Assembly: GCF_000233715.2 (NCBI RefSeq)
Contig: NC_021184.1
Span: 2,318,001 to 2,382,000 of the forward strand
Reading direction: 5' to 3'
DNA from: Desulfoscipio gibsoniae DSM 7213
GTDB taxonomy: Bacteria; Bacillota; Desulfotomaculia; Desulfotomaculales; Desulfallaceae
DNA length: 64,000 bases
This document shows, one piece after another, positions 40,076 through 54,884 of this stretch. Position 1 is the stretch's first letter, and each line of letters begins with the position of its first letter. The notes under the pieces were generated by a model that ran no database searches, was not told where the DNA came from, and saw nothing but the letters and a program-made list of their open reading frames with translations. A program made the position numbers and the translations under genes.

Positions 40076-41293
40076 TTATATGGCCATCTCTGATTCTATC
40101 CTATCACCAAAGTATATGACAAATTGGGAGATGCAATTTTTCCAATCTTTAACTGGCATAGTCCATTTTTTTGCTGCTTCAACGGTGGCCAGGTAAATAA
40201 TTTTCTTCAGTGAATCGTCTGTTGGATAGGCAGTTTTAGTTTTGGTTACTTTCCGTAGTTGCCGGTGGTAACCCTCGATGATATTAGTAGTATAAATCAT
40301 TTTACGGATTTCATATGGGTATTTAAAATAAGCTGTTAACTCAAGCCAATTCTTTTCCCAGGAACGAATTATAATGGGATGTCTTTTACCCCAGTTTTCT
40401 TTGAATATTTCAAAGGCTAACTCAGCCTCTTCCAGGGTTAATGCCTGGTACACTTGCTTAAGATCAGCCATCAACTCCTTTTGTTCTTTGTATGGCACAT
40501 ACTTCAGGGAATTACGGATTTGATGGATTATGCAAAGCTGAATTTCGGTATGGGGGAAAACAGTGTTTATGGCCTCAGAAAACCCGGAAAGCCCGTCTTT
40601 ACAGGTAATCAGGATATCTTGCACCCCCCTGTTTTTGAGGTCATTACATACACCAAGCCAAAAGCTGGCACTTTCATTTTCCCCAATCCAGATGCCAAGT
40701 ATTTCTTTTTGGCCTGCCATATTTAGGGCCAACACACTGTAGGCCGCCTTGTTTATTATCCGGTTATCTTTACGTACCTTGAAATGGATAGCATCAAGGA
40801 AAACAATAGGGTATATACGGTCAAGTGTCCGGGACTGCCACTCTGCAATCAGTGGTAGTATTTTGTCTGTTATCTTGCTGACCATGGTAGGGGATACGTC
40901 GATACCGTAGATATCCCTCATGTGGTCCTCAATATCACGTGTAGACATACCCTTGGCGTACATGGCTATAATTTGGTCTTCAAGCTGGTTGGATGTCTTT
41001 TCATATTTACCGATAAGCCTTGGTTCAAATTCACCATTACGATCCCGTGGGATTTCCACTTCTGTCTTGCCGAACTTAGTCTGGATAGTTTTCTTATTGT
41101 AACCGTTGCGACTGTTGCCAGTATTATTGCCTTCAATGCTGTGTTTTTTATACCCGAGGTGCTCTTCAATTTCAGCCTCGAATATCTGCTGCAAGGTGTC
41201 CTTGAATAGATTCTTGAGCATCTCATGTACGTCTTCTACGGTGCGGCAATCCTTTGCTAATTCCTTGATCGTTTTGTCTTGCATGGCTTGCAT
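40076..41293 (-). CDS. IS256-family transposase
   Basis: A 405-residue Mutator-type transposase. DDE core: Asp in YPIVFLDAIHFKVR near residue 168, Asp in ITCKDGLSGF near 235 and Glu in TNIIEGYHRQLRK near 342; C/D(2)H-type CIIHQIRNSLKY is the family signature. GGAGATG precedes the ATG. Uninterrupted, so likely able to move the element it sits in. Confidence 0.95.
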   Translation of the reverse strand: MQAMQDKTIKELAKDCRTVEDVHEMLKNLFKDTLQQIFEAEIEEHLGYKKHSIEGNNTGNSRNGYNKKTIQTKFGKTEVEIPRDRNGEFEPRLIGKYEKTSNQLEDQIIAMYAKGMSTRDIEDHMRDIYGIDVSPTMVSKITDKILPLIAEWQSRTLDRIYPIVFLDAIHFKVRKDNRIINKAAYSVLALNMAGQKEILGIWIGENESASFWLGVCNDLKNRGVQDILITCKDGLSGFSEAINTVFPHTEIQLCIIHQIRNSLKYVPYKEQKELMADLKQVYQALTLEEAELAFEIFKENWGKRHPIIIRSWEKNWLELTAYFKYPYEIRKMIYTTNIIEGYHRQLRKVTKTKTAYPTDDSLKKIIYLATVEAAKKWTMPVKDWKNCISQFVIYFGDRIESEMAI

Positions 41294-41350: not shown

Positions 41351-43351
41351 TCACTCATTGATTTTTTCATATCGTCTTGCTCCAACATATCGTGGACTCC
41401 AATAACTATCTGAGATATTAAGATCACGAATTGCTACACCTTCAGATTCTGTTACGATGATAAACTGCTCATTTCCAATATGTAATCCTGGTAGTAGTAC
41501 CTTGCTGGATCCCTCAAAGAATAGAACATCTCCAATATTTAAATCTTCCCTTTCTATTTCTTTTCCTAAAGCCCATTGTTGGGATGAATATCTTGGTAGA
41601 TCAATATCTAAACCTGCTTTCATAACGTATTGTATAAACCCGGAGTGATTAAAGCCTTCTTTGGTATTTCCTCCTGCTAAGTAACGTACACCCAGGGTTT
41701 TATATGCTTCTTCAACGACTTTAGAATCCAGCCTCAAACTAAGCGAGTCAAAGCGTTTTACTACTGCAAGGCGATCCAGCAAATTTTGTCCTAAATAGCT
41801 GATTGTATTCATACCTTCGTCGCCAGATGCATGAATTATATAATTATTTCCTAGATAAATTGCAGCATGTGATATCCCTTCCCGCCATTTTCCTGTAAAA
41901 TAAATCACGTCTCCAGGACGCTTGTTTTCAAAATCGATAGTTTCGCCTACTTCACATTGTTTATAAGTTATGCGAGGCAAATAAATGTTTTTAGCATCTC
42001 TAAAGACTGTCTGAACTAAATAAGAACAGTCAAAACCATCTATTGTATCGCCACCTAACAAATAAGGAGTTCCTATATATTTCATTGCTTCTCGAATAAC
42101 TAAATTCTCATGTTCCTTATAATTTTCAGGCTGAGAATAATATATATCAGCCTCCGTTAGTCGTTTTGCACCTACATATATATCTGACCAATACTCACTC
42201 TCAATATCCCTTTCCGCAACTCCTTCTGTAGTCTGAACTATAAACATACCATTTCCTTTATAAATACCAGGTATAAGACCGCTTCCCTGGAAAAACACTA
42301 AGTCTCCTGCTTGAAGCTCTTCTTTAGAAATGGATTCGCCTATTTCATAGATCCTATCGGAAAAGACAGATAGTTGTATATTGAGGGTATCTTTAAAAAC
42401 ATAACGTACAAAATTAGTCGTATTAAAGCCTTCGGTTGGTGAATTCCCTTCTGGATTATAGGGTGTTCCAAGCAAAGCCATAGCCTTTTCCACAATTGGA
42501 TTGCTTACGATGCCTTCCTCAATAATATTGTTAGTAAACCGTCTTGCTCCCAGCAACCTGGATTTCCAATAATCACTTGTTTCGAGATCTACTACAGCAA
42601 CCCCATTAGTTGTAACAATAACAAAAATACCATTGTCTATGTATATTCCTGGTAGTCGCACACTGCTGCCTTGAAAGAATAGTACATCACCAGATTTAAT
42701 ATCAACCGCATCTACTTCCATACCTACTCTCCATTGTTCGTTCGATGTTCTGGGAAAATCCAGTTTGTTTACTTCATTAAAAACGTATTGTACAAAGCCT
42801 GAATGATCAAAGCCATTTGGATCATTACCTCCAAGTTCATAAGGAGATCCTACTAATTCAAGGGCTTTTACAGCTACAGGATTTAATTCATTAGCTATAT
42901 TTGTGTAGCGCCTTGCACCTTTATACCGATCCCTCCAATAGGAATCTTCTACTATATTCCGTTTTACTACTCCTTCATTAGTCGCTACAACGATAATGAT
43001 ATCATCGCCTTTATATATTGCCGGTATTAGGTTGTCGCTTCCAGTAAAGTAAAGAACATCTCCAGGCTGTATTTCACTACGTTCTATAGGTTTACCCAGT
43101 TTCCATAACTGTGAAGGCGATCCAGGGAGGACTATACCCTCTCCCTCTCTGAATGCATACTGAATAAACCCGGTGCTATTAAATCCTTCCTCCGGTGTAT
43201 TTCCTCCTTGTTTAAAAGGCTTGCCTATTAAACTTTCTGCAAGTAAAACCGTTTGAATTTCTGTCTCATTATTATAACCATAGGATGGGCTAGCAGTTAA
43301 CAGGATCAATAGGATTAACCATATGACATTTAGTTTTTTAAATTGGTTCAT
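41351..43351 (-). CDS. Secreted protein with five NlpC/P60-type modules, one catalytic
   Basis: A 666-residue exported protein with a signal peptide (VIWLILLILLTASPSYG) and five tandem modules of about 120 residues, at approximately 30-150, 155-275, 285-410, 425-540 and 545-662. Each opens with a G-x-PY-like segment and a GF-x-x-x-x-F motif and contains a GDVLFF-like strand. Only module 4 keeps the NlpC/P60 catalytic Cys (GFDCSYLVQ) and His (GISHAAIYLG). The others read GFNSTGF, GFDHSGF, GFNTTNF and GFNHSGF, and have Pro instead of the catalytic His. One peptidoglycan endopeptidase plus four non-catalytic, probably binding, repeats is inferred. AGGTGG precedes the ATG. Confidence 0.85.
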   Translation of the reverse strand: MNQFKKLNVIWLILLILLTASPSYGYNNETEIQTVLLAESLIGKPFKQGGNTPEEGFNSTGFIQYAFREGEGIVLPGSPSQLWKLGKPIERSEIQPGDVLYFTGSDNLIPAIYKGDDIIIVVATNEGVVKRNIVEDSYWRDRYKGARRYTNIANELNPVAVKALELVGSPYELGGNDPNGFDHSGFVQYVFNEVNKLDFPRTSNEQWRVGMEVDAVDIKSGDVLFFQGSSVRLPGIYIDNGIFVIVTTNGVAVVDLETSDYWKSRLLGARRFTNNIIEEGIVSNPIVEKAMALLGTPYNPEGNSPTEGFNTTNFVRYVFKDTLNIQLSVFSDRIYEIGESISKEELQAGDLVFFQGSGLIPGIYKGNGMFIVQTTEGVAERDIESEYWSDIYVGAKRLTEADIYYSQPENYKEHENLVIREAMKYIGTPYLLGGDTIDGFDCSYLVQTVFRDAKNIYLPRITYKQCEVGETIDFENKRPGDVIYFTGKWREGISHAAIYLGNNYIIHASGDEGMNTISYLGQNLLDRLAVVKRFDSLSLRLDSKVVEEAYKTLGVRYLAGGNTKEGFNHSGFIQYVMKAGLDIDLPRYSSQQWALGKEIEREDLNIGDVLFFEGSSKVLLPGLHIGNEQFIIVTESEGVAIRDLNISDSYWSPRYVGARRYEKINE

Positions 43352-43632
43352 TTTAAAATCCACCTACTTTATCTCGCTTGTCGCCTTTAAGACTCCCGCA
43401 TCAAACTTTACTTGGGCTGCAAGATCTTGTTGGTTTGGCATTTTATTGGTGTTTTTCATATTTAAAGCATTCGCGATTTCATTATTGAATTCCTCCTGTA
43501 AAACTTCCTGTATAAGCAATTTTCAACGCATGATAATGCTTCCATACCGACGCAATGCAGCCATTGCACTTGGGGCTCGCTATCTCAAAAGTAAGCTATA
43601 CCTCCGGCTTGATCTCGTTAACCGCCGCTAAG

Positions 43633-43934: not shown

Positions 43935-45515
43935 TCAATATTTCCGGTTATAGGATGGGAAATTTATGTTAAAAGTCGTTCCCTTCCCCAATTGACTCGT
44001 GACATCTATGCTGCCGCCTTGTAACTGAACCAGCTTTTTCACAATCACCAGCCCCAGGCCGCTCCCTTTTTCCTGCAGGTAACCGCCGCGCCGGTTCTTC
44101 ACCTGGTAAAACCTGTCCCAAATGTGCGGCAGGTCTTCGGGGGCTATACCAATACCATCATCCTCAATGGTCAGTACCACTTCACCCTGGTGGACCTCCA
44201 CCCCAACCCTGACGGTACCGTTCTCGGTGGCCCGGACAGCATTCTTCAGCAAGTTCCTGATAATCTGTTCCATTCGGTCAACATCACCGAGCACGACCGC
44301 GTTTTCTGTTTTCTTCTCGAACAGAATCGCGGTATTCTTGCTGCCGGCCATTGCCTCCATGGATGTGACCACACCCTGGGCCAGGGTGATCAAGTCCATC
44401 GGCAGTTTTTCCACGGTGACATTGCCGCTTTCCAGGCGGCTTAACACCAATATGTCATCTACCAGCCTGGCGATATGAATCGTTTGAGTATAAATCGTAT
44501 CCAAGTACCTGTTCAGCAAAGCTTCATCCTGGACCATACCGTCGCGGATAGCCTCTACAAATCCCTGAACAGCAGTCAGAGGGGTACGTAACTCATGCGA
44601 TATCTCCGCAAACAACTGGGCTTTTTCTTCTTCCATCCTGCGGCTTTCGGCATGCATCTCCCGCAGTCTCACCGCCAAGTGGCTAAGCTGGCCGGCAAGG
44701 GCTTTAATTTCCTCCGGAGGCCGCTCCCCGGCGCTTAAAACATAATTCCCCCGGTTAAACTCCGCCACGGTGGTAGCCAAATGGGAAATCGGCCTGGATA
44801 TTGATAGGGCCAGATAAGCGGAAATAAACATAAAAATCACCAATATGGCCATGCCTCCGATAACCAGATACAAACGCATTTTGTTTAAAGCATGGTTTAG
44901 ATTAACTGGATTCGTTTCCAGCAGGATGCCGTTTTCAATGACATCTTTGTTGTCGTTGTTACCCATGGGGACAACGACAACAAAAATGATCTGACCCGTT
45001 TCCTGATCAACCGCCCGGGCAATCGCGGTTTCACCCTTGTTGAGCAATTTGACGAATTTTGCATCCACCTGGTTACCGGGCACCACTTCCTGCTGCGCTG
45101 AGGTGTCCAGAATATTTCTTTGCCTGTCAAAGACCGTAATCCTGGTATCGAAGATATCGGCCAAAAATTGCAACATTTGCTGTCTACCCTGAGCCTGATC
45201 ATTTGTTTGCCCGGCAGGCGGCACCCCCCATGCCTGGTCATTTTGCTGGAGCAAGGCAAAGTTTACCCGCTTGGCCTTGCGTAACAGATCCTGTTGGACC
45301 TGATCATAGGCTATTTGTTTCACTACATAGCCGGAAAACATCGTCAGGGCAATCAGACCGAAAACAAAGGTTATCATATTGGTAAACAGTATCCTGGTGT
45401 GAATATTTTTATTGAATTGCTCCCGCAGCAAGTGCTTGAGCATAAGGAAGAGCCTGCCTGCAGCGTGGATTACCAAATGAAGTCTTTCTTTGCCCTGTTG
45501 GAGATAAGAATTCAC
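43935..45515 (-). CDS. Sensor histidine kinase
   Basis: A 526-residue membrane kinase. A span near 45-70, an extracytoplasmic domain of about 125 residues, a second span near 205-228, HAMP, HisKA with EISHELRTPLTAV near residue 307, and HATPase with EDDGIGIAPEDLP and GSGLGLVI. Overlaps the regulator gene by four bases. Stimulus unknown; PhoR/ResE-like architecture. Bracketed with its regulator by long direct repeats. Confidence 0.9.
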   Translation of the reverse strand: MNSYLQQGKERLHLVIHAAGRLFLMLKHLLREQFNKNIHTRILFTNMITFVFGLIALTMFSGYVVKQIAYDQVQQDLLRKAKRVNFALLQQNDQAWGVPPAGQTNDQAQGRQQMLQFLADIFDTRITVFDRQRNILDTSAQQEVVPGNQVDAKFVKLLNKGETAIARAVDQETGQIIFVVVVPMGNNDNKDVIENGILLETNPVNLNHALNKMRLYLVIGGMAILVIFMFISAYLALSISRPISHLATTVAEFNRGNYVLSAGERPPEEIKALAGQLSHLAVRLREMHAESRRMEEEKAQLFAEISHELRTPLTAVQGFVEAIRDGMVQDEALLNRYLDTIYTQTIHIARLVDDILVLSRLESGNVTVEKLPMDLITLAQGVVTSMEAMAGSKNTAILFEKKTENAVVLGDVDRMEQIIRNLLKNAVRATENGTVRVGVEVHQGEVVLTIEDDGIGIAPEDLPHIWDRFYQVKNRRGGYLQEKGSGLGLVIVKKLVQLQGGSIDVTSQLGKGTTFNINFPSYNRKY

Positions 45516-46222
45516 AATGTGGTCTCTCCCTCCTTAACAGGAGGTGTAAACTGGTATCCCACACCCCAGACAGTTGTCAGGTATTCATAGGGCAAGGGTG
45601 CCAGCTTTGTCCTCAGCCTGCGAATATGTACATCCACCGTACGCTGGTCACCGAAGTAATCATACCCCCAGACAGCCGTTAACAGTTCTTGCCTGGTGAA
45701 AACCCGCCGGGGATTCTGAGCCAGGTAATAGAGCAAATCGAATTCTCTGGGAGTAACTTCTGTTTCTTTACCGTCAACCAAAACACTCCTGATATCGGCC
45801 TGAATTTCCAGTCCCGGGTATTTCATTTTCCAGTTCGTTGACGTATCAACCGGTTGGGTACGGCGCAGTACCGCTTTTATTCTGGCTACCAGCTCCCTGG
45901 GGCTGAAAGGCTTGGCAACATAGTCATCAGCTCCCATTTCCAGTCCCAGAACACGGTCCGCTTCTTCTCCTTTGGCTGTAAGCATGATGATGGGAATCAT
46001 GCGGATCTCCCTTAAATTGCGACATAGCATAAGCCCGTCCTTACCCGGAAGCATGATGTCCAGTATTACCACATCAGGATTCTCCCGGTCGAATGCGGGC
46101 AGGACCAGATCACCGTTGTTTATCCCGATGATTTCAAAACCTTCCCTTTCACCGTACAACTTGATAAGTTCCAGTACGGTTTGGTCGTCATCAACTACCA
46201 AAACCTTGCCCAAATACGGCAT
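45512..46222 (-). CDS. OmpR-family response regulator
   Basis: A 236-residue regulator: receiver with VVDDDQ, phospho-acceptor Asp in VVILDIMLPGKDG and Lys in DDYVAKPF; winged helix ending TTVWGVGYQF. An ATG at 46222 follows GGGGGG by about six bases; the longer frame from 46237 is a TTG that overlaps this site. Partner of the kinase encoded downstream. Confidence 0.9.
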   Translation of the reverse strand: MPYLGKVLVVDDDQTVLELIKLYGEREGFEIIGINNGDLVLPAFDRENPDVVILDIMLPGKDGLMLCRNLREIRMIPIIMLTAKGEEADRVLGLEMGADDYVAKPFSPRELVARIKAVLRRTQPVDTSTNWKMKYPGLEIQADIRSVLVDGKETEVTPREFDLLYYLAQNPRRVFTRQELLTAVWGYDYFGDQRTVDVHIRRLRTKLAPLPYEYLTTVWGVGYQFTPPVKEGETTL

Positions 46223-46270
46223 TATTTCCCCCCTCAACGATCTTTCAATTTATCTTCGCACAGCCTGTAA

Positions 46271-46545: not shown

Positions 46546-47401
46546 TTCTTGATTTCTCGTACCCATATGCAAAGTTAGCCCGGCCCCATTAAAAATGAGT
46601 AGGCTAAACAACAAACAACCCGCCAGAGAAGCGGGTATGTTGGACAGCAGCCGGTTAAACAATCGATGGAGGAGTTATATTCAGCATATCATCCAGCAAC
46701 CTAATTTAACATATAAAATTGATGGTTGTAATGGATATATCATGCCAAACTGCCAAGAGCAACTGTTACTTTTTTGAGCTTCAGGCTTGTTACTCATGCC
46801 CGGAAATTTCAAAAAACCTTCCTTATTATAGGCAATTATACCGGAGGAATATTAACTGGTTTTTAACAAACCTCTATAATACATTACGAAAATATTACTA
46901 ATTATTAATGGGTACTTTGGGAAATTTTAATTCTTGTAACATTTATTAATATTCTCGAAAAATATTTTAAGTATCGCAAAAGTTGGCTAATAAATGTCTG
47001 AATGGTTAGATGATTAAAGACGTTTTCAGGTATATGTGCTTGGTTTTAGTATAGGGGCAACAAATCTTCTTTTATTAATCTGAACTTTTAACTATGCAAT
47101 TTTAGACATGATTTTACCTGAATTAGACACGTTATTGTATGAAGTCAACAAAAGTTATGGATCATAAAACTCAGGTATGCTAATTTTTTAACACATAGAC
47201 CAGGGCTATTCTATAACTGTAGAGAAGCCCCTAACTTTGTGTCCTTTTATTTGACAATCAGCACATGAAACCAATCGAAAAGGCAAATCCATCGAAAATG
47301 TTCTTAATTAAATGGGCTTGAAAGGAGGGAATATATTAGGCCTTTAAAAATAAATATAGCACAAGAAGTATATTTCTAATTATTGCAAGGAGGCTGAGGA
47401 A
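46546..47401. promoter_or_regulatory. 856-base non-coding region with repeat-type control element
   Basis: No convincing gene. At 46934-47000 TTGTAACATTTATTAATATT begins a sequence resembling the elements before pgsB (50871 and 51058). At 47280-47303 two direct ATCGAAAA octamers occur 18 bases apart. At 47314 GGGCTTGAAAGGAGG matches GGCTTGAATGGAGG at 51135; each sits 88-90 bases before a start codon. A short frame at 46595-46777 is not supported. Confidence 0.45.
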
Positions 47402-48358
47402 TTGAGAAAAGAACGTTTACTTATTATTGTTTACTTTTTGTTTGCGCTTCTTTTTATTGCCGCCATACCAGCGCACGCCGCTGCCCCGTCGATAGTGTTA
47501 AATGGACAAATACTGCAATGCGATACTCCACCAATGGTTGAGGACGGCAACACTCTGGTGCCGATGCGGGCTGTTTTCGAAGGCCTGGGGGCACAGATAA
47601 ACTGGGACAACCCTACTAAGACAGTTACGGCTGCCACCTATAATACCAATACCACTGTGCAACTGGTTATCGGTGGAGATGTTAAGGTTAACGGCCAAAA
47701 ATTGAATACTACCGCTCAGGCCAAGATTTACAACAGCATCACCATGATCCCCCTGCCTTTGGTGAGTGAAGCACTGGGAGCTGCAGCTAATTGGAACCCG
47801 GATAACCAGGTTGTCACCATTACCGCTGCTGAAACAACAACACCGGTTTACCCCCCGATTGTAATCGAAACCCCAGGCGACACAGCAGTGGAAGAACAGG
47901 AAGGCATTGAAGAGGACCCAACTGCAGATGAGCAGGAAGGCACCGAAGAGGACTTAACTGCAGATGAACAGGAAGGCACCGAAGAGGACTTAGCTGCAGA
48001 TGAAGATGAGGATGAAAACGGCGAAGACGAATCAGCTAACAACACTTCCTTTTCATCATACCTGAATGAATTGGAAAACAGGTTTATACCTGAAAAAGCG
48101 GCAGGCTTCTCCGCTACCTATCAGTTTGCGCTCACCGGAGATAATGAAGCAAATTATTACATTATCATCGATGACGGCAAGCTTATGACAGGAGAAGGAA
48201 CTGCCGGTAACCCGGACGTTACCGTTACGATAAACGAACAGCTCTGGCTGGATATAGTATCCGGTGAGGAAAACGCCATGGATGCTTACTTAGAGAATAA
48301 ATTCACCGTGAACGGCGACCCGTCTCTTATTATGAAACTTAAAGAATACATTAAATAG
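47402..48358 (+). CDS. Secreted copper-amine-oxidase-stalk / SCP2 sterol-carrier fusion
   Basis: A 318-residue exported protein. Signal peptide to about residue 26 (AHAAAP), then a copper amine oxidase N-terminal-like (stalk) domain with PPMVEDGNTLVPMRAVFEGLG and MIPLPLVSEALGA (about 30-145). An acidic linker follows, with three 12-residue copies of EQEGTEEDLTAD. The C-terminal domain (about 217-318) fits the SCP2 lipid-carrier fold, with ADYTFALTGD-like and NPDVTVTINEQLWLDIVSGE segments. The TTG start follows AAGGAGG by eight bases. SCP2 domains usually act inside cells, so an exported one is odd. Function unknown; lipid binding near the wall is inferred. Confidence 0.75.
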   Translation: MRKERLLIIVYFLFALLFIAAIPAHAAAPSIVLNGQILQCDTPPMVEDGNTLVPMRAVFEGLGAQINWDNPTKTVTAATYNTNTTVQLVIGGDVKVNGQKLNTTAQAKIYNSITMIPLPLVSEALGAAANWNPDNQVVTITAAETTTPVYPPIVIETPGDTAVEEQEGIEEDPTADEQEGTEEDLTADEQEGTEEDLAADEDEDENGEDESANNTSFSSYLNELENRFIPEKAAGFSATYQFALTGDNEANYYIIIDDGKLMTGEGTAGNPDVTVTINEQLWLDIVSGEENAMDAYLENKFTVNGDPSLIMKLKEYIK

Positions 48359-48403
48359 TTGGTGATTAAATTAAACACAGCTCATAACGGTATAAAACAT
48401 TTT

Positions 48404-48443
48404 AAAAAAAATCCCGAACTATAAACAGGTTTGGGATTTTTTA
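48404..48443 (+). terminator. Terminator after the stalk/SCP2 gene
   Basis: ATCCCGAAC and GTTTGGGAT around a short loop, with an A-run before and TTTTTTATT after. Confidence 0.85.
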
Positions 48444-48701
48444 TTGTTAAGCGTATTGTATGTCAAGCACTTTTTTTACAAAAGCCAACAACACTAATCG
48501 CTTTTTGTGTGTTCTTATTTTTGATCTAGTTGTGCTAAGTATGAGTTTTGGTCTACGAAAGGATCTGTTTTACAAAATAGATTTAAATATTAATATATTT
48601 TTACACATAATTAATAGAAAAATGGTCGTATTTTAAACTATCTATGGTATCATTTGGTTTGCCCGGGCAAAAAAACTACATTTGAGGGGAGCGGTTTTTC
48701 C

Positions 48702-49802
48702 GTGTTTTTTAACAGAAATGTTAAACACATAGCTGCGGCAATTGCAACATTTGCCATTTCTGCAACTATATTTTGCAGCCCTGCCCTGGCTATGACAAAT
48801 AACAATGTACAGTTAAAGTTCAACTCTAACGGCAAGTTCAAAATAGTGCAGTTCACCGATATTCAACAAGATAAGGATATAGACCAAAGGACTATACAGC
48901 TTATGGAAAAAGTGCTTGACGAAGAAAAACCTGATCTTGTTATGGTCACAGGGGATAACTTAACCAGCGACTGTAGTACGCCTGAGTCAGTCAGTCAGGC
49001 CGTCTATAATATCGCCCAGCCGATGGAAAAGAGAGCCATAAACTGGGCCGTTACTTTCGGGAACCACGACGAGGAAGCAGCCGAGAAGACCGGGCTAAAT
49101 GAGGAGGACATGCTTAAAATATACATGTCTTATAACCACAATGTTAATCAGCCCGGGGTGAAAAACATCACCGGAACCGGCAACATGAATCTTCTTATAA
49201 GGGATTCAAAAAACAAGAAGGCTGCCTTCAACCTCTGGCTACTTGACTCCGGAAGATACGCGCCTGAAGAAATCGCCGGCCAGGACTTCAAGAGCTATCC
49301 TAATTGGGATTGGCTTCGCTTTGACCAGGTAAGGTGGTATTATGAAACTTCAGAGAAGTTAGAGCAACAATACGGCTACAAAGTTCCTTCAATCATGTTC
49401 ATGCATATCCCTCTCTGGGAGTACAGGTTTATGTGGTATGCCAGTGTCGACGGTAGAAGTGCTGATAACCATAGCCATGCCGTTACTAAACACAGTATAA
49501 TTGGAGAGAGAAACGAAGACGAGTGCCCCGGCCCGTTCAATAGCGGCATGTTTGCGGCCATGCTGGAGAGGGGAGACGTCAAAGGCGTGTTTGTGGGCCA
49601 TGACCATGTGAATGACTATATGGGCAATTATTACGGCATATTGCTTGGCTATTCAGCCAGCACCGGGTTTGACACTTATGGGCTTGATGGTAATGAAAAG
49701 GATAGGTTGCGTGGCGCCCGGATATTCAACCTCGACGAAAATGTAAACGGTGCCTTAGTTGAAACCCACATGGTTTTTGCTAAAGACTATGGTATCCAAT
49801 GA
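48702..49802 (+). CDS. Secreted calcineurin-like metallophosphoesterase
   Basis: A 366-residue exported phosphoesterase of the purple acid/Dcr2-like group. GTG start at 48702 with GAGGGGAG ten bases upstream gives a clean signal peptide MFFNRNVKHIAAAIATFAIS ending at ALA; the longer frame from 48654 lacks this. Metal-binding motifs in order: QFTDIQ (Asp), VTGDN, FGNHDE, FMHIPLWEY (His) and VGHDHVNDYMG (His-x-His). All five blocks are intact. Likely hydrolyses a phosphate ester outside the membrane; the substrate is unknown. Next to the SCP2 fusion and closed by a terminator. Confidence 0.88.
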   Translation: MFFNRNVKHIAAAIATFAISATIFCSPALAMTNNNVQLKFNSNGKFKIVQFTDIQQDKDIDQRTIQLMEKVLDEEKPDLVMVTGDNLTSDCSTPESVSQAVYNIAQPMEKRAINWAVTFGNHDEEAAEKTGLNEEDMLKIYMSYNHNVNQPGVKNITGTGNMNLLIRDSKNKKAAFNLWLLDSGRYAPEEIAGQDFKSYPNWDWLRFDQVRWYYETSEKLEQQYGYKVPSIMFMHIPLWEYRFMWYASVDGRSADNHSHAVTKHSIIGERNEDECPGPFNSGMFAAMLERGDVKGVFVGHDHVNDYMGNYYGILLGYSASTGFDTYGLDGNEKDRLRGARIFNLDENVNGALVETHMVFAKDYGIQ

Positions 49803-49874
49803 GATATTTTATATCGTCTAAATATAAAAATTGAAGGCCGTATTCAAAAAATAAGCTAATCGATATAGACGCAG

Positions 49875-49900
49875 AAAAACCCGGGGATTCCCGGGTTTTT
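49875..49900 (+). terminator. Terminator after the metallophosphoesterase gene
   Basis: AAAAACCCGGG, GATT, CCCGGGTTTTT. It works in either direction. Confidence 0.9.
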
Positions 49901-50100
49901 CATCATAAGGTGTGCCCGGCATGGGCGACAGCTTGGTGGTGAAAGTCAACCTTTGTCATAATTCTTAAAAATCGGGAGTGTTGTTGCCATAAAAATTTGA
50001 ATTATTTCAAACCGGGATAAGCATAATAAGTCTAAATTTTTTGGCCGTTGGAAGATAAGATGGCAGCGGGTGGCCAAAATTTACAGATACAGAGGTTGCT

Positions 50101-50748
50101 ATGCCAATATCCGTTAAAGACTTACCCCAAAACTTAGACATTACCCTGAAACATAACTTTAAAGACCTGTGCGAGTTGGCCTGGGAAACGCAGGGGGTAA
50201 TTGAAGCCAACAAGCCCTGTGAGGAAATATTTGAACAGTTCACCAAAATTAAAAATACAATAGATTACATAGAAAGCTTAATTCTCACAAGCCAATTAAA
50301 AAACTGCTTTTTGCCCGATATTCCTTACATGAAGGAGCTGTTTAAAGCTATACAACATTTGAGCATAAAAGGCTATGGTGCCTTAATTGCCATTCAGCGA
50401 GAAGACGACATAAAAGAAGTAATAGATGTAACCCACATTGGGGTGCAGCTTGATGCCAAATTATCCAACCGTTTGCTGGAAAGTATCTTTTATCCCGGCT
50501 CCCCCTTACATGATGGCGCAGTGGTGATTAAAGGGGACAGAATTTTTTCCGCCGGATGTGTTTTGCCGCTTTCTAAAAAGGTAGTTCCCGAAAAAAAACT
50601 AGGCACCAGGCACATGGCTGCGCTTGGTCTCAGTGAAATATGCGATGCGGTTATCTTTGTGGTTTCTGAAGAAACAAGAAAAATCACAATAGCTTTTAAA
50701 GGAGAGCTATTTACTAATATTCATCAAGGCATGCATTTGCATTTTTGA
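50101..50748 (+). CDS. cdaS: Diadenylate cyclase, CdaS-like
   Basis: Makes cyclic di-AMP from two ATP. The 215-residue protein has no membrane span. An N-terminal helical region of about 65 residues, as in the sporulation-associated CdaS, is followed by the DAC domain (about 75-205) with the active-site motifs HDGAVVI and GTRHMAALGLSE. CdaA-type enzymes have three membrane spans and DisA has a DNA-binding end; neither is present. CdaS acts in spore development and germination in Bacillus. GAGGTTGCT is a weak ribosome site before the ATG. Confidence 0.88.
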   Translation: MPISVKDLPQNLDITLKHNFKDLCELAWETQGVIEANKPCEEIFEQFTKIKNTIDYIESLILTSQLKNCFLPDIPYMKELFKAIQHLSIKGYGALIAIQREDDIKEVIDVTHIGVQLDAKLSNRLLESIFYPGSPLHDGAVVIKGDRIFSAGCVLPLSKKVVPEKKLGTRHMAALGLSEICDAVIFVVSEETRKITIAFKGELFTNIHQGMHLHF

Positions 50749-50814
50749 GGAAAAGTACTTATTAATAGTAATGATCTAACTGCAGCAGAATCGATTGTAT
50801 TAATGCTTAAAAGA

Positions 50815-51224: not shown

Positions 51225-52442
51225 GTGCAGTTTGCTATAGCGCTTATTATTTTTGTTTTTATCTTAGGTATTTATGAACAAATAAGACATAATAAAAACT
51301 TAAACCAGATCAATCTTAGAATCAATATAAACGGCACAAGAGGTAAATCAACTGCAACAAGATTAATTACCGGTATTTTAAAGGAAGCAGGAGTTGAGGT
51401 TGTTGGAAAAACGACGGGGACCAGTGCGAGAATTATTTATTGGAACAAGGAAGAAGAGGAACCAATCAAACGAGGCCCTTTAGGTCCAAATATTATAGAA
51501 CAAAAAGCTGTCGTTAAAAAAGCAGTCAAGCTTGGCGCATCTGCATTTGTAACAGAGTGTATGGCTGTAAATCCCGATTACCAGATTATTTTTCAGGAAA
51601 AGCTTGTTAAAGCAAATATAGGCGTTATTGTTAATGTTCGTGAAGACCATATGGATGTGTGCGGCCCGACTTTGGATTTTATTGCAGAGTCCTTTACGGC
51701 TACAATACCAAAAAACGGCACCCTTATTATTGATGATAGCAGATATAATGACTATTTTACTAAAGAAGCAAAGAAAAGAAACTGCCGGGTATTAATTGCA
51801 AATGAAAAAGAAATCCCGGATGGTTATCTGGAAAATTTCGGATATGTGATTTTCCCGGAAAATGTTGCTCTTGCGCTGGCTGTGGCTAAAGCAATAAACA
51901 TTGACAAAAATACTGCGTTAAGGGGAATGTTAAACGCTAATCCTGATCCGGGAGCATTAATGATCCATACCTTAGACAATAAAAGCCCCACATATTTTGT
52001 CAATGGCTTTGCCGCCAATGATCCAAATTCCACACGAATGATTTGGGAGCATATAACAGCTCTTGGTTATCCAACAAAAAATCCTATGGTAATTATAAAT
52101 TGCAGGCCTGATAGGGTTGACAGGACATTACAGTTGGCAGAAGAGGTCTTACCAAATATGGATATTGATATTCTTGTTGCAATGGGTCAGACAGTAAATC
52201 CAATTACCGAAAGAGTTAATAGTAAAAAAATATCTCCTCAGAAATATATAAATGCTGAAGGTTTGTCTCCCCATGAGGTTTATGAAACAATTAAGGATTC
52301 TTTTATAAACAGAGTAATTTATGGCATTGGAAACATTCACGGTGGTGGCGATGAATTGGTTGAGTTGATAATTCACGACTTTCCCAATGAATTAAGAACT
52401 CGCTTCAATCTGGAAACAGATCAAGTGCCACAAGTTATTTAG
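51225..52442 (+). CDS. pgsB: Poly-gamma-glutamate synthase ligase subunit
   Basis: ATP-dependent Mur-ligase-like amide ligase that polymerises glutamate. A 405-residue protein with an N-terminal membrane anchor (about 2-17), the P-loop-like INGTRGKSTATRLI near residue 37, NVREDHMDVCGPT near 143 and NCRPDRVDR near 293, all PgsB/CapB hallmarks. The GTG start has AAAGGATAGG upstream. First gene of a four-gene operon with pgsC, a small membrane protein and a hydrolase-family protein. The usual third subunit gene, pgsA/capA, is not present in the window. Confidence 0.92.
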   Translation: MQFAIALIIFVFILGIYEQIRHNKNLNQINLRININGTRGKSTATRLITGILKEAGVEVVGKTTGTSARIIYWNKEEEEPIKRGPLGPNIIEQKAVVKKAVKLGASAFVTECMAVNPDYQIIFQEKLVKANIGVIVNVREDHMDVCGPTLDFIAESFTATIPKNGTLIIDDSRYNDYFTKEAKKRNCRVLIANEKEIPDGYLENFGYVIFPENVALALAVAKAINIDKNTALRGMLNANPDPGALMIHTLDNKSPTYFVNGFAANDPNSTRMIWEHITALGYPTKNPMVIINCRPDRVDRTLQLAEEVLPNMDIDILVAMGQTVNPITERVNSKKISPQKYINAEGLSPHEVYETIKDSFINRVIYGIGNIHGGGDELVELIIHDFPNELRTRFNLETDQVPQVI

Positions 52443-52463: not shown

Positions 52464-52916
52464 TTGCTTTTTACGGCTATTGGCACAGTTATAATTTTGG
52501 GTGTAATTTTGAGCTTGTTATTTACGGAAATTACCGGAATCTTACCTGCCGGTCTGATTGTACCAGGATATTTAGTTTTACTTATAGATCTACCCCAGGC
52601 TATATTTTTAACATTCTTTATTAGCATCTTGACTTATTTAATAGTTAATTTCGGAGTGAGCAAAGTTACAATTCTATACGGCAAAAGAAAATTTGTAGCT
52701 ATGATAGCTGTGTCAGTAGTGTTGCAGCTTATTCTGTATACAATATTGCCCTTTGATTATCGTTATCTCTCCGGATTGGCAGCAGTTGGTATTGTTGTGC
52801 CCGGATTATTAGCAAACACAATTCAGCGTCAAGGTATAGCAACAACATTTTTAAGCACTGGATTGCTGTGTGCAATGACTTATGGTTGCACATTACTGTT
52901 AAATGTCAATATATGA
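52464..52916 (+). CDS. pgsC: Poly-gamma-glutamate synthase membrane subunit
   Basis: A 150-residue integral membrane protein with four or five spans and the family motif GILPAGLIVPGYLVLL near residue 24; AAVGIVVPGLLANTIQRQG marks the second conserved loop. Partner of PgsB in the membrane-bound synthase. A TTG start has AAGGAGGG eight bases upstream. Gap of 21 bases from pgsB, so the two are cotranscribed. Confidence 0.92.
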   Translation: MLFTAIGTVIILGVILSLLFTEITGILPAGLIVPGYLVLLIDLPQAIFLTFFISILTYLIVNFGVSKVTILYGKRKFVAMIAVSVVLQLILYTILPFDYRYLSGLAAVGIVVPGLLANTIQRQGIATTFLSTGLLCAMTYGCTLLLNVNI

Positions 52917-52931: not shown

Positions 52932-53165
52932 ATGAACACTTTATACGGGCAAATAAATAGCAAACAATACATGAACACATCAGAACCTATCAAAGAAAAC
53001 AGTAAGCATGAAGCTGTTGCGGTTTTTAATACACTAACATTAAAAGAAAAATGCCTGTATCTCGTTAAGATCAGCAAGAGAAATACCGGTTATCAAGCAC
53101 TTGGGCTAATGGGATTAACTCTGCTGATTATTGCTACAGATTATCTGTTTACTAGAATTGTTTAA
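52932..53165 (+). CDS. Small membrane protein in the pgs operon
   Basis: A 77-residue protein with a polar N-terminal 45 residues and one C-terminal span (about 55-73, LGLMGLTLLIIATDYLF). AAGGAGGTG precedes the ATG. Lies 15 bases after pgsC and 18 before the hydrolase-family gene. It resembles neither PgsA nor clearly PgsE, but PgsE is also a short single-span protein, so it could be a divergent accessory subunit. I do not recognise a family. Confidence 0.65.
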   Translation: MNTLYGQINSKQYMNTSEPIKENSKHEAVAVFNTLTLKEKCLYLVKISKRNTGYQALGLMGLTLLIIATDYLFTRIV

Positions 53166-53183: not shown

Positions 53184-54032
53184 ATGAAAAAACAATCTAT
53201 CAAAATTCTGGCTTTAGTTATGTTGTTTACATTTGGAATTGGTATAAGCGCATATGCCTTCACAACAGGCTATCGTAGTTTTGCTGAACTAGCTGCAGCT
53301 GAAGACCCTTCAGACTATACCATTAAAACTAATGATATCGGAAGCGATACAACATTTTTAGCTATACACGGAGGCGGTATTGAAAGAGGCACTTCAGAAT
53401 TAGTTGAGGCATTGAACGGATACGGTAAATATAACACTTATTCATTTGAAGGACTTAAAGCGGCTGATAATGGGAGCCTTTTTATGAAGGCTATCAATTT
53501 TGACGAGCCAACAGCTGTTAGTTTAGTTAATAAATCAGATTACACTGTTTCTGTAATCGGAGCTGCCGGCGATGACGAAGTTACTTATATTGGCGGTCAG
53601 AATAAGTTGCTGGCAGAATTGATCAGATTACATCTTACTACCAAAGGATATAATGTGCAAACTTTAAGTATTCCTGATCGCATTGCCGGGGTTATGGACA
53701 GCAATATAGTGAATAAGAATAAATTATTTAATGACAGTTATCAGCTTGGCGGCGTTCAGATCGCTATTTCCAAAGGTTTAAGAGATAAGCTCGCAACTGA
53801 TTCCGGTACCTTAAACGATTATTCAGGCACCATCAATAACGCGCTAAGCGAAAGCTGGCCAACAATAGTTGAGCTCATGAAGAAGATTGATAATAATAAA
53901 TCTGAAGGGTTTTTAAATAAGTTTAACCCTGAAAAGCGCAACTTCGATAAGAAAATCCAGAAAGTATTAGAAAAAGGCGCAAATAATCCCAAGGAATTAA
54001 TTCAAGACGTTAAAGCAGTATCAGAAGAGTAA
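53184..54032 (+). CDS. Exported PghP-family poly-gamma-glutamate hydrolase homologue, probably inactive
   Basis: A 282-residue protein with a signal peptide (MKKQSIKILALVMLFTFGIG...AYA) and the PghP/DUF867 poly-gamma-glutamate hydrolase domain (about 40-220). It keeps FLAIHGGGIERGT but has LFM for LHV, VSVIGAAG for LSIHGCGG and QIAIS for QLEIS, compared with the homologue at 54141. Two candidate metal His and one Glu are therefore lost. A Lys-rich helical tail of about 60 residues is extra. AAAGGAGCA precedes the ATG. Last gene of the pgs operon; a binding or export role for the polymer is inferred. Confidence 0.82.
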   Translation: MKKQSIKILALVMLFTFGIGISAYAFTTGYRSFAELAAAEDPSDYTIKTNDIGSDTTFLAIHGGGIERGTSELVEALNGYGKYNTYSFEGLKAADNGSLFMKAINFDEPTAVSLVNKSDYTVSVIGAAGDDEVTYIGGQNKLLAELIRLHLTTKGYNVQTLSIPDRIAGVMDSNIVNKNKLFNDSYQLGGVQIAISKGLRDKLATDSGTLNDYSGTINNALSESWPTIVELMKKIDNNKSEGFLNKFNPEKRNFDKKIQKVLEKGANNPKELIQDVKAVSEE

Positions 54033-54054
54033 CCTGAAAAAATACTGTTTATAT

Positions 54055-54104
54055 AGGTAAAAGGCTGACAAGCTACCTTCGGTAGTTTGTCAGCCTTTTT
54101 ACCT
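54055..54104. terminator. Bidirectional terminator between the two hydrolase genes
   Basis: AGGTAAAAGGCTGACAAGC and its mirror around CTTC, with A-run and T-run on opposite sides. It ends the pgs operon and the convergent hydrolase gene. Confidence 0.9.
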
Positions 54105-54140
54105 TTACTATGTCATTTACACGGAATTATTTACACTCCC

Positions 54141-54884
54141 TTACATATTGTTGACTGCCTCACTTATTGCGAGAACATAGCTTTTCAAGCTATCCTTATT
54201 AGTCGACAAAAACTTTGTCCTTAAGCCCTCTGATATTTCTAGCTGTACTCCCCGTTCGTCTATATCTCTATTCACTATGTTATCTGGCGATATACCGGCC
54301 AGATCCTTCGGAGTATCTTTTTTTACAGTAAAACCATACTTAGTCAGAGATTCTTTTATTCTGTTTGCCAATTCAGTGTCCCGGCCTCCTATATATGTGA
54401 ATTCTTCTGCACCGCCACACCCGTGGATTGATAATGTCCTTTTAGATTTAGAAACCATTTCCAGTGCGTATGTTTCAGCGAATTTATCTGAAGGAACATG
54501 TAGTGCAAAATTATCTGTGCTTTTTAAACCCTGAAATGAATAATAGTTGTAATTATTATGGGAAGCTAAGGCATAAGCTAATTCAGTAGTACCTTTTTCA
54601 ATTTTACCTCCATGAATTGCCACAACTGTAACATTAGAATCTGTTTCATTAACTTCAATTTCATAATCAACATCTTTTTGAGAATCCAATAAATTTCTTA
54701 ATTCATCAAGTTCATTTTTTTGTTCTTTTATTTTTTCATTTGCAATATCTAACTGTTTTTCTAGTGTTTTATTTTCATCTTTTAATTTTGCGCCTTCGTA
54801 TTTTACATAACTTGAATAACCTATTAATAAAAAGAATAATAAAGCAAATACATTAATTGTTTTAACATGTTTTCTTATGTTCAT
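54141..54884 (-). CDS. Membrane-anchored PghP-family poly-gamma-glutamate hydrolase
   Basis: A 247-residue protein with an N-terminal membrane anchor (about 11-28), a Lys/Glu-rich coiled coil (about 30-68) and the PghP/DUF867 domain (about 75-240). It keeps VAIHGGKIEKGT, LHV, LSIHGCGGAEE and VQLEISEGLR, the residues missing from its neighbour at 53184, so it is likely an active zinc-dependent hydrolase acting outside the membrane. GAAAGAGATG is the start context. Faces the pgs operon and ends at the shared terminator. Role in trimming or release of the polymer is inferred. Confidence 0.82.
   Translation of the reverse strand: MNIRKHVKTINVFALLFFLLIGYSSYVKYEGAKLKDENKTLEKQLDIANEKIKEQKNELDELRNLLDSQKDVDYEIEVNETDSNVTVVAIHGGKIEKGTTELAYALASHNNYNYYSFQGLKSTDNFALHVPSDKFAETYALEMVSKSKRTLSIHGCGGAEEFTYIGGRDTELANRIKESLTKYGFTVKKDTPKDLAGISPDNIVNRDIDERGVQLEISEGLRTKFLSTNKDSLKSYVLAISEAVNNM

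Follow-up and report, generated by a model that had tools for sequence, protein, structure and literature searches.

In Desulfoscipio gibsoniae, the genes for poly-γ-glutamate (γ-PGA) synthesis are followed by a gene whose product belongs to the PghP family of γ-PGA hydrolases, and the locus raises the question of what a member of a polymer-degrading family does inside a polymer-making operon. The window analyzed here is the whole stretch of 64,000 nucleotides at positions 2,318,001 to 2,382,000 of NC_021184.1, from a genome assembled as one contig of 4,855,529 bases. A first-pass annotation of this DNA had pointed to two PghP-family genes, one in the operon and one converging on it, and had proposed that the operon copy is a non-catalytic homolog recruited to bind or guide the polymer, beside an active membrane-bound trimmer.

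Organization of the pgs locus

The operon runs from pgsB through pgsC and a small open reading frame (ORF) to the PghP-like gene, on which the second PghP-like gene converges. The features are as follows.

41351..43363, minus strand: NlpC/P60 protein of five domains, PgdS-like (PF00877, 5 stretches; catalytic Cys in domain 4 only)
43935..46237, minus strand: histidine kinase and response regulator (HisKA/HATPase; response-regulator matches; shared DNA blocks)
51225..52442, plus strand: pgsB, ligase of the poly-γ-glutamate synthase (TIGR04012, 535.8 bits, cut-off 222.7)
52464..52916, plus strand: pgsC, membrane subunit (TIGR04011, 138.2 bits, cut-off 96.45; PF14102)
52932..53165, plus strand: small ORF of 77 amino acids between pgsC and the operon hydrolase-family gene, with a hydrophobic stretch at the C-terminus
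53184..54032, plus strand: PghP-family protein, very probably dead (pseudo-hydrolase), with a signal-like N-terminus, PF05908 and a helical C-terminal extension
54141..54884, minus strand: convergent PghP-family protein with intact zinc and catalytic residues and Pro at the Thr79 position

Both ORFs named by the first-pass annotation belong to the PghP family: the operon and convergent proteins match PF05908 with 156.4 and 186.6 bits, respectively (cut-off 22), and are 40% identical (76 of 188 aligned columns). The convergent protein has a membrane segment at its N-terminus and a predicted coiled stretch. The small ORF matched no Pfam or NCBIfam family above cut-off. An inverted repeat was seen by eye between the convergent genes, near 54060-54101, yet the terminator scan returned none. 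A third PghP-family gene of the same genome (G000:C1:1017881-1018417; L001) encodes every zinc and catalytic residue.

The NlpC/P60 gene moves with the cassette, in DNA blocks common to G006, G012, G046 and G048, and together with the kinase-regulator pair it adjoins pgsB in other cassette genomes, within shared DNA. Only one of its five domains carries the Cys motif (GFDCSYL), and a single Cys was likewise found in the proteins of the 5 relatives examined, making this a second set of dead hydrolase domains within the same cassette. A mutator-family transposase gene (40076-41293, minus strand) adjoins it. The stretch between the response regulator and pgsB (46992-50810) varies, from about 3.8 kb here and about 6.9 kb in G006 to short in G046, G048 and G027, and looks like an insertion hotspot. 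A CdaS-like diadenylate cyclase gene lies upstream of pgsB (50101-50748, plus strand; NF038328, 181.8 bits, below the cut-off of 225) and was not detected in the other cassette loci searched with it.

Active-site residues of the two proteins

In the crystallographically characterized hydrolase PghL, whose numbering and residue roles we adopt, the zinc ligands are reported to be His41, Glu46 and His102, and the side chains touching the polymer those of His77, Thr79, Ser80, Asn73, Asn151, Thr168 and Arg171 (PMC6506827). According to the same source, alanine at the PghP equivalents of His41, Glu46, His77, His102 and Glu165 is deleterious, Thr80Ala in PghP nearly eliminates activity, Arg171Ser in PghL abolishes cleavage, and stretches of L-glutamate are the specificity of PghL.

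At these positions, the convergent protein has His41, Glu46, Asn73, His77, Ser80, His102, Asn151, Glu165 and Arg171, with Pro in place of Thr79 and Glu in place of Thr168. The earlier statement that this copy keeps all the residues is therefore right for the zinc and catalytic positions and wrong for these two. The operon protein retains two zinc ligands, His41 and Glu46 (the IHGG motif and the Glu that follows it, as first described), the substrate anchor Arg171, and Asn73 and Asn151, and has lost the zinc ligand His102 (Ile) and the catalytic Glu165 (Ala) expected of an active PghP. The three substitutions by which it had been singled out are real and fall on zinc-ligand, catalytic and substrate positions of PghP/PghL (PMC6506827): LFM for LHV removes His77 (Phe), IGAAG for HGCGG removes His102, and QIAIS for QLEIS removes Glu165. 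Thr79 (Lys), Ser80 (Ala) and Thr168 (Lys) are further losses beyond that list. Misalignment was considered as a source of these differences and set aside, as the pairwise, HMM and multiple alignments all agree. Given the residues at the zinc, catalytic and substrate positions, the operon protein is very probably catalytically dead, and the convergent protein is probably, though not certainly, active.

The operon protein had also been credited with an extra, Lys-rich tail. The C-terminal extension exists, with 60 residues and predicted helices, but it is not net Lys-rich (12 Lys and Arg against 11 Asp and Glu). A role for it as a polymer binder was rejected, its net charge being +1 in the window and ranging from -7 to +8 among copies. 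The domain itself is acidic overall (net -6).

Predicted fold of the operon protein

An AlphaFold2 model of residues 27-282, computed from a 15-row alignment, had a mean pLDDT of 78.3 and a pTM of 0.82. It superimposed on PghL (5onj) with a Z-score of 23.8 and an rmsd of 2.4 Å over 188 aligned residues, and its best structural matches were PghL and two other PghP structures; as modeled, the operon protein has the PghP/PghL fold. The extension past the PF05908 domain is helical in the model, and the active-site loops fall in part below a pLDDT of 50.

Distribution of the dead form and its fixed losses

A scan of named genomes identified the dead form at 7 loci with 69-93% identity, among them those of Desulfotruncus arcticus, Desulfocucumis palustris, a Pelotomaculum MAG, Anaerosolibacter carboniphilus and Alkaliphilus pronyensis. 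In whole-genome searches, it turned up in 8 of the 113 genomes from the window's order, with one copy truncated, and in 6 of 247 from the order that includes A. pronyensis; a phylum-wide sample yielded it in 4 of 398 genomes, the window's own and the truncated one counted. After removal of repeats, 17 genomes remained, with 16 complete dead copies and one truncated copy (G048). In the latter (L026, 10224-11092), a deletion fuses pgsB residues 1-143 to dead-hydrolase residues 135-282; most of pgsB is gone and the cassette is broken, and the intact hydrolase and NlpC genes persist. Phage and plasmid records were considered as a source of the dead form and, judged by overall identity, discarded: all 214 phage and 43 plasmid records matched at less than 60%.

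We aligned the 16 dead copies, which are all open frames, with 16 partners and 27 other family members; the 43 comparison domains are those brought in by the searches and not a random sample of PF05908. His102 is replaced by Ile or Val and Glu165 by Ala in all 16 dead copies, and each is conserved in all 43 other domains, so that both are lost in 16/16 complete pgs-linked homologs and in 0/43 of the others compared. Fourteen of the 16 also lack His77, Thr79 and Ser80; all three remain in the early branches G570 and G618. Glu46 is kept in 13 copies and replaced by Gln, Ser or Ala in G546 (Gln), G618 and G570. Because G570 and G618 keep His77, Thr79 and Ser80 without Glu46, the losses were stepwise, with the catalytic core first. 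His41, Asn73, Asn151 and Arg171 are retained throughout (16/16), a basic residue stands at Thr79 in 14 copies and at Thr168 in all 16, and the SVIGAAG and QNK stretches, new in the dead copies, are strongly conserved. A hydrophobic patch was tried as a partner interface, positions 146 and 149 being Leu in 16/16 dead copies and mostly charged in the partners; Leu at position 146 also occurs in 4 of the 27 other PF05908 members, which leaves the patch just a hint.

Phylogeny, selection and transfer

In a tree of 59 domains, support was 100 for a single clade of dead copies, 95 for a clade of their linked intact partners and 80 for the grouping of the two clades; a duplication within the cassette is therefore likely. 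Pairwise dN/dS by the Nei-Gojobori method had a median of 0.26 for the dead copies of Clostridia (range 0.22-0.42, 15 pairs) and of 0.26 for their intact partners (range 0.14-0.42). For copies from the window's order (21 pairs), the median was 0.42, compared with 0.43 for the partners; both pair sets have low dS and contain single pairs above 1 (1.43 and 2.02).

The housekeeping protein TsaB (TIGR03725) of the window's genome is 57%, 58% and 56% identical to those of G027, G046 and G048. With G027 and G046, respectively, the dead protein shares 88.7% and 96.1% identity, and the DNA of the pgs block 90.8% and 94.5% over 3.7 kb. Because the dead protein and pgs DNA are far more alike than TsaB, we conclude that the cassette has moved recently between families. 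Given these recent transfers with low dS, the similarity of copies within the window's order says little alone. The selection pattern nonetheless supports purifying selection on the dead copy, pointing to recruitment rather than decay, as first proposed. Judged from sequence, the protein has the marks of a pseudoenzyme: lost catalytic residues, purifying selection and a conserved neighborhood.

Three kinds of pgs operon

A suggestion of the first-pass annotation was to ask whether related bacteria share the degenerate copy, and it proved to be a conserved member of pgsB-pgsC operons in both related and distant bacteria. In all but one of the 16 genomes, pgsB and pgsC lie upstream of the dead gene; the exception is G447, with a broken pgsB and no pgsC detected at the locus. 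The small ORF was detected by HMM in 12 further cassette genomes, those with a main-clade copy, and its core of about 44 amino acids was recognized by eye in G393, G618 and G570 (L089, L149 and L150). In 14 of the 16, the intact partner converges on the dead gene from within 500 bp; in G486 the two genes share a strand and are separated by 2.6 kb. Beyond the dead copy beside its pgsB-pgsC genes, the genome of G570 yielded no further PF05908 match to profile A2, so the dead copy is linked more tightly to pgsBC than to its intact relative. Two operons of the CapA type (L092 and L093) likewise have intact PghP genes nearby, so what is special about the cassette is the dead hydrolase and not the presence of an intact one.

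What the earlier annotation missed is that the dead gene occupies the site where other pgs operons have PgsA or a TIGR04332 protein. PgsB scored above cut-off in 33 of the 398 genomes of the phylum sample. The partner gene at these loci was CapA in 6, TIGR04332 in 21 and the dead hydrolase in 3, with two partners together at none; exactly one of the three partner genes was present at 30 of 33 loci, the others being G372, in which no partner was identified, G368, whose contig stops within pgsB, and G268, which has no pgsC. TIGR04332 was assigned by the NCBIfam model at 6 of its 21 loci and at the other 15 by an HMM built from those 6; of the 13 seeds intended for the CapA HMM, 5 went into it, and it recovered CapA in Bacillus-type controls. 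The TIGR04332 proteins, themselves candidates for an alternative third component, follow pgsC at most sampled pgsB loci (L094-L106, L108-L111 and L114-L117), and in G356 CapA precedes pgsB instead of following pgsC.

No CapA-type gene (pgsA) was found in any cassette locus scanned. Of the 13 cassette genomes searched as a whole, namely those other than G621, G546, G618 and G570, 12 have a CapA-family gene elsewhere and G048 has none; that of D. gibsoniae is 36% identical to Bacillus-type PgsA over 291 residues. In a tree of 43 PgsB sequences, those of the dead-hydrolase type (15 sequences, support 100) and the CapA type (6 sequences, support 84) form separate groups, which together are split from the TIGR04332 type (support 100). 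The tree therefore divides by partner type, which is the pattern expected if the partner gene is a working part of the synthase.

Proposed role of the dead hydrolase

From its position and lineage, the dead hydrolase looks like an alternative third synthase component. We consider it probable, if far from settled, that it is the extracytoplasmic third component of the PgsBC synthase, in the place of PgsA (CapA). The sequence evidence behind this reading comprises the fold family, the loss of residues for zinc binding and catalysis, conservation over long times, the tie to pgsB-pgsC, the lack of pgsA at the locus and a separate PgsB lineage. The protein would be exported and retained at the outer face (its signal-like N-terminus ends in AYAF). 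There the old substrate groove, with Arg171, Asn73 and Asn151 kept and basic residues at Thr79 and Thr168, could hold the emerging chain without cutting it and in this way support elongation or export. Release or trimming of the polymer would fall to the convergent, intact family member and to the NlpC/P60 protein.

In Bacillus subtilis, PgsBC is reported to make polymer with a D/L ratio of 5/95 without PgsA and 75/25 with it, and the need for PgsA in γ-PGA synthesis is disputed (PMC6029982); PgsA is also reported to increase the ATPase activity of PgsBC and to have a role in transport (PMC5751247). PghP-type grooves are selective for L-glutamate, and B. subtilis PgsBC forms L-rich polymer when PgsA is missing; on these grounds we predict an L-rich product, and a PghP groove with the anchor Arg but no cutting activity would suit the holding of such a chain as it leaves PgsC. 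Three observations weigh on the other side: PgsA could act in trans from the unlinked CapA-family gene of most cassette genomes; the acidic domain does not favor polyanion binding in general; and the loss of substrate-contacting Thr79 and Ser80 in 14 of 16 copies would argue against chain holding. A larger claim, which we regard as a serious possibility and advance tentatively, is that of a third synthase class, composed of PgsBC, the small membrane protein and a domesticated dead hydrolase instead of PgsA, in which the dead groove would receive and hold the L-γ-glutamyl chain and contribute to determining its stereochemistry and length.

The dead protein might instead be a regulatory pseudoenzyme, an activator, inhibitor or heterodimer partner of the convergent hydrolase and not part of the synthase. 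The proximity of the intact copy and the descent of both from one branch of the family fit this, but the dead gene runs with pgsBC, its presence tracks the PgsB phylogeny, and G570 has it with no other match to A2 in the genome; we think this account unlikely. Retention of some other chemistry, for example γ-glutamyl transfer or chain anchoring at a remodeled site with His41 and Glu46, would agree with the invariance of His41, the presence of Glu46 in 13 of 16 copies and the conserved SVIGAAG and QNK stretches. The replacement of Glu46 in three copies and the invariant Ala at Glu165, for which there is no substitute base, count against it and make it improbable.

Still less credible to us is a decoy or shield that coats or caps the polymer against phage or foreign PghP enzymes. 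Phages use PghP as a weapon (PMC4497714; 214 phage records match), and a dead homolog could fill the same sites; the matched phages, however, are those of Bacillus, Staphylococcus and Listeria, and a one-to-one co-operonic position after pgsC fits a synthase part better. That the gene is a decaying, functionless duplicate would be in keeping with the loss of five active-site residues, the truncation in G048 and the broken pgsB in G447. Against this stand 16 open frames with the same losses fixed, pairwise dN/dS well below 1, purifying selection equal to that on the intact partner, and retention through horizontal transfer and divergence, and we give decay almost no credence. A third synthase component remains the reading that we prefer.

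Relation to known systems and implications

PghP and PghL (YndL) are zinc-dependent γ-PGA endo-hydrolases (PF05908; MEROPS M86). The dead protein shares their domain and fold along with His41, Glu46, Asn73, Asn151 and Arg171, and differs in the absence of His102, Glu165, His77, Thr79 and Ser80, in its helical C-terminal extension and in being fixed in a pgs operon. Like PgsA/CapA (PF09587), the third component of the Bacillus type, it lies beside pgsB-pgsC, has a predicted export signal and occurs once per operon, but it is unrelated by family, with PF05908 the only match and PF09587 unmatched at E up to 0.1. It resembles the TIGR04332 protein in following pgsC, and differs in having no NCBIfam match at E up to 0.1 and in belonging to a different PgsB lineage. 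A precedent for dead hydrolase domains in γ-PGA biology is PgdS (YwtD), in which the second of three NlpC/P60 domains alone is reported to be functional (PMC5880399); the dead domains of PgdS are fused to a live one, whereas the dead protein of this operon stands alone and shares its operon with the synthase genes.

The first-pass annotation knew of no described pseudoenzyme of this kind, and the literature searched, largely outside subscription journals, contained no account of a degenerate PghP protein encoded among pgs genes. A survey of PghP and PgsB genes counts the genomes with both, and its Results and Discussion are silent on lost residues or such operons (PMC4497714).

In some anaerobic bacteria, then, a PghP relative without its cutting residues became fixed in the polymer-making gene set, and others carry an unrelated helper. 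As the role of PgsA in γ-PGA synthesis is disputed (PMC6029982), operons with another protein in its place amount to a natural replacement experiment, and the replacement belongs to a fold whose ligand is known from crystal structures. If a dead hydrolase can replace PgsA, this would suggest that the task of the third component is chain handling, with a possible route to L-rich polymer. If true, the proposal would also offer a clear example of an enzyme of polymer breakdown recast as a component of the machinery that synthesizes what it once cut.
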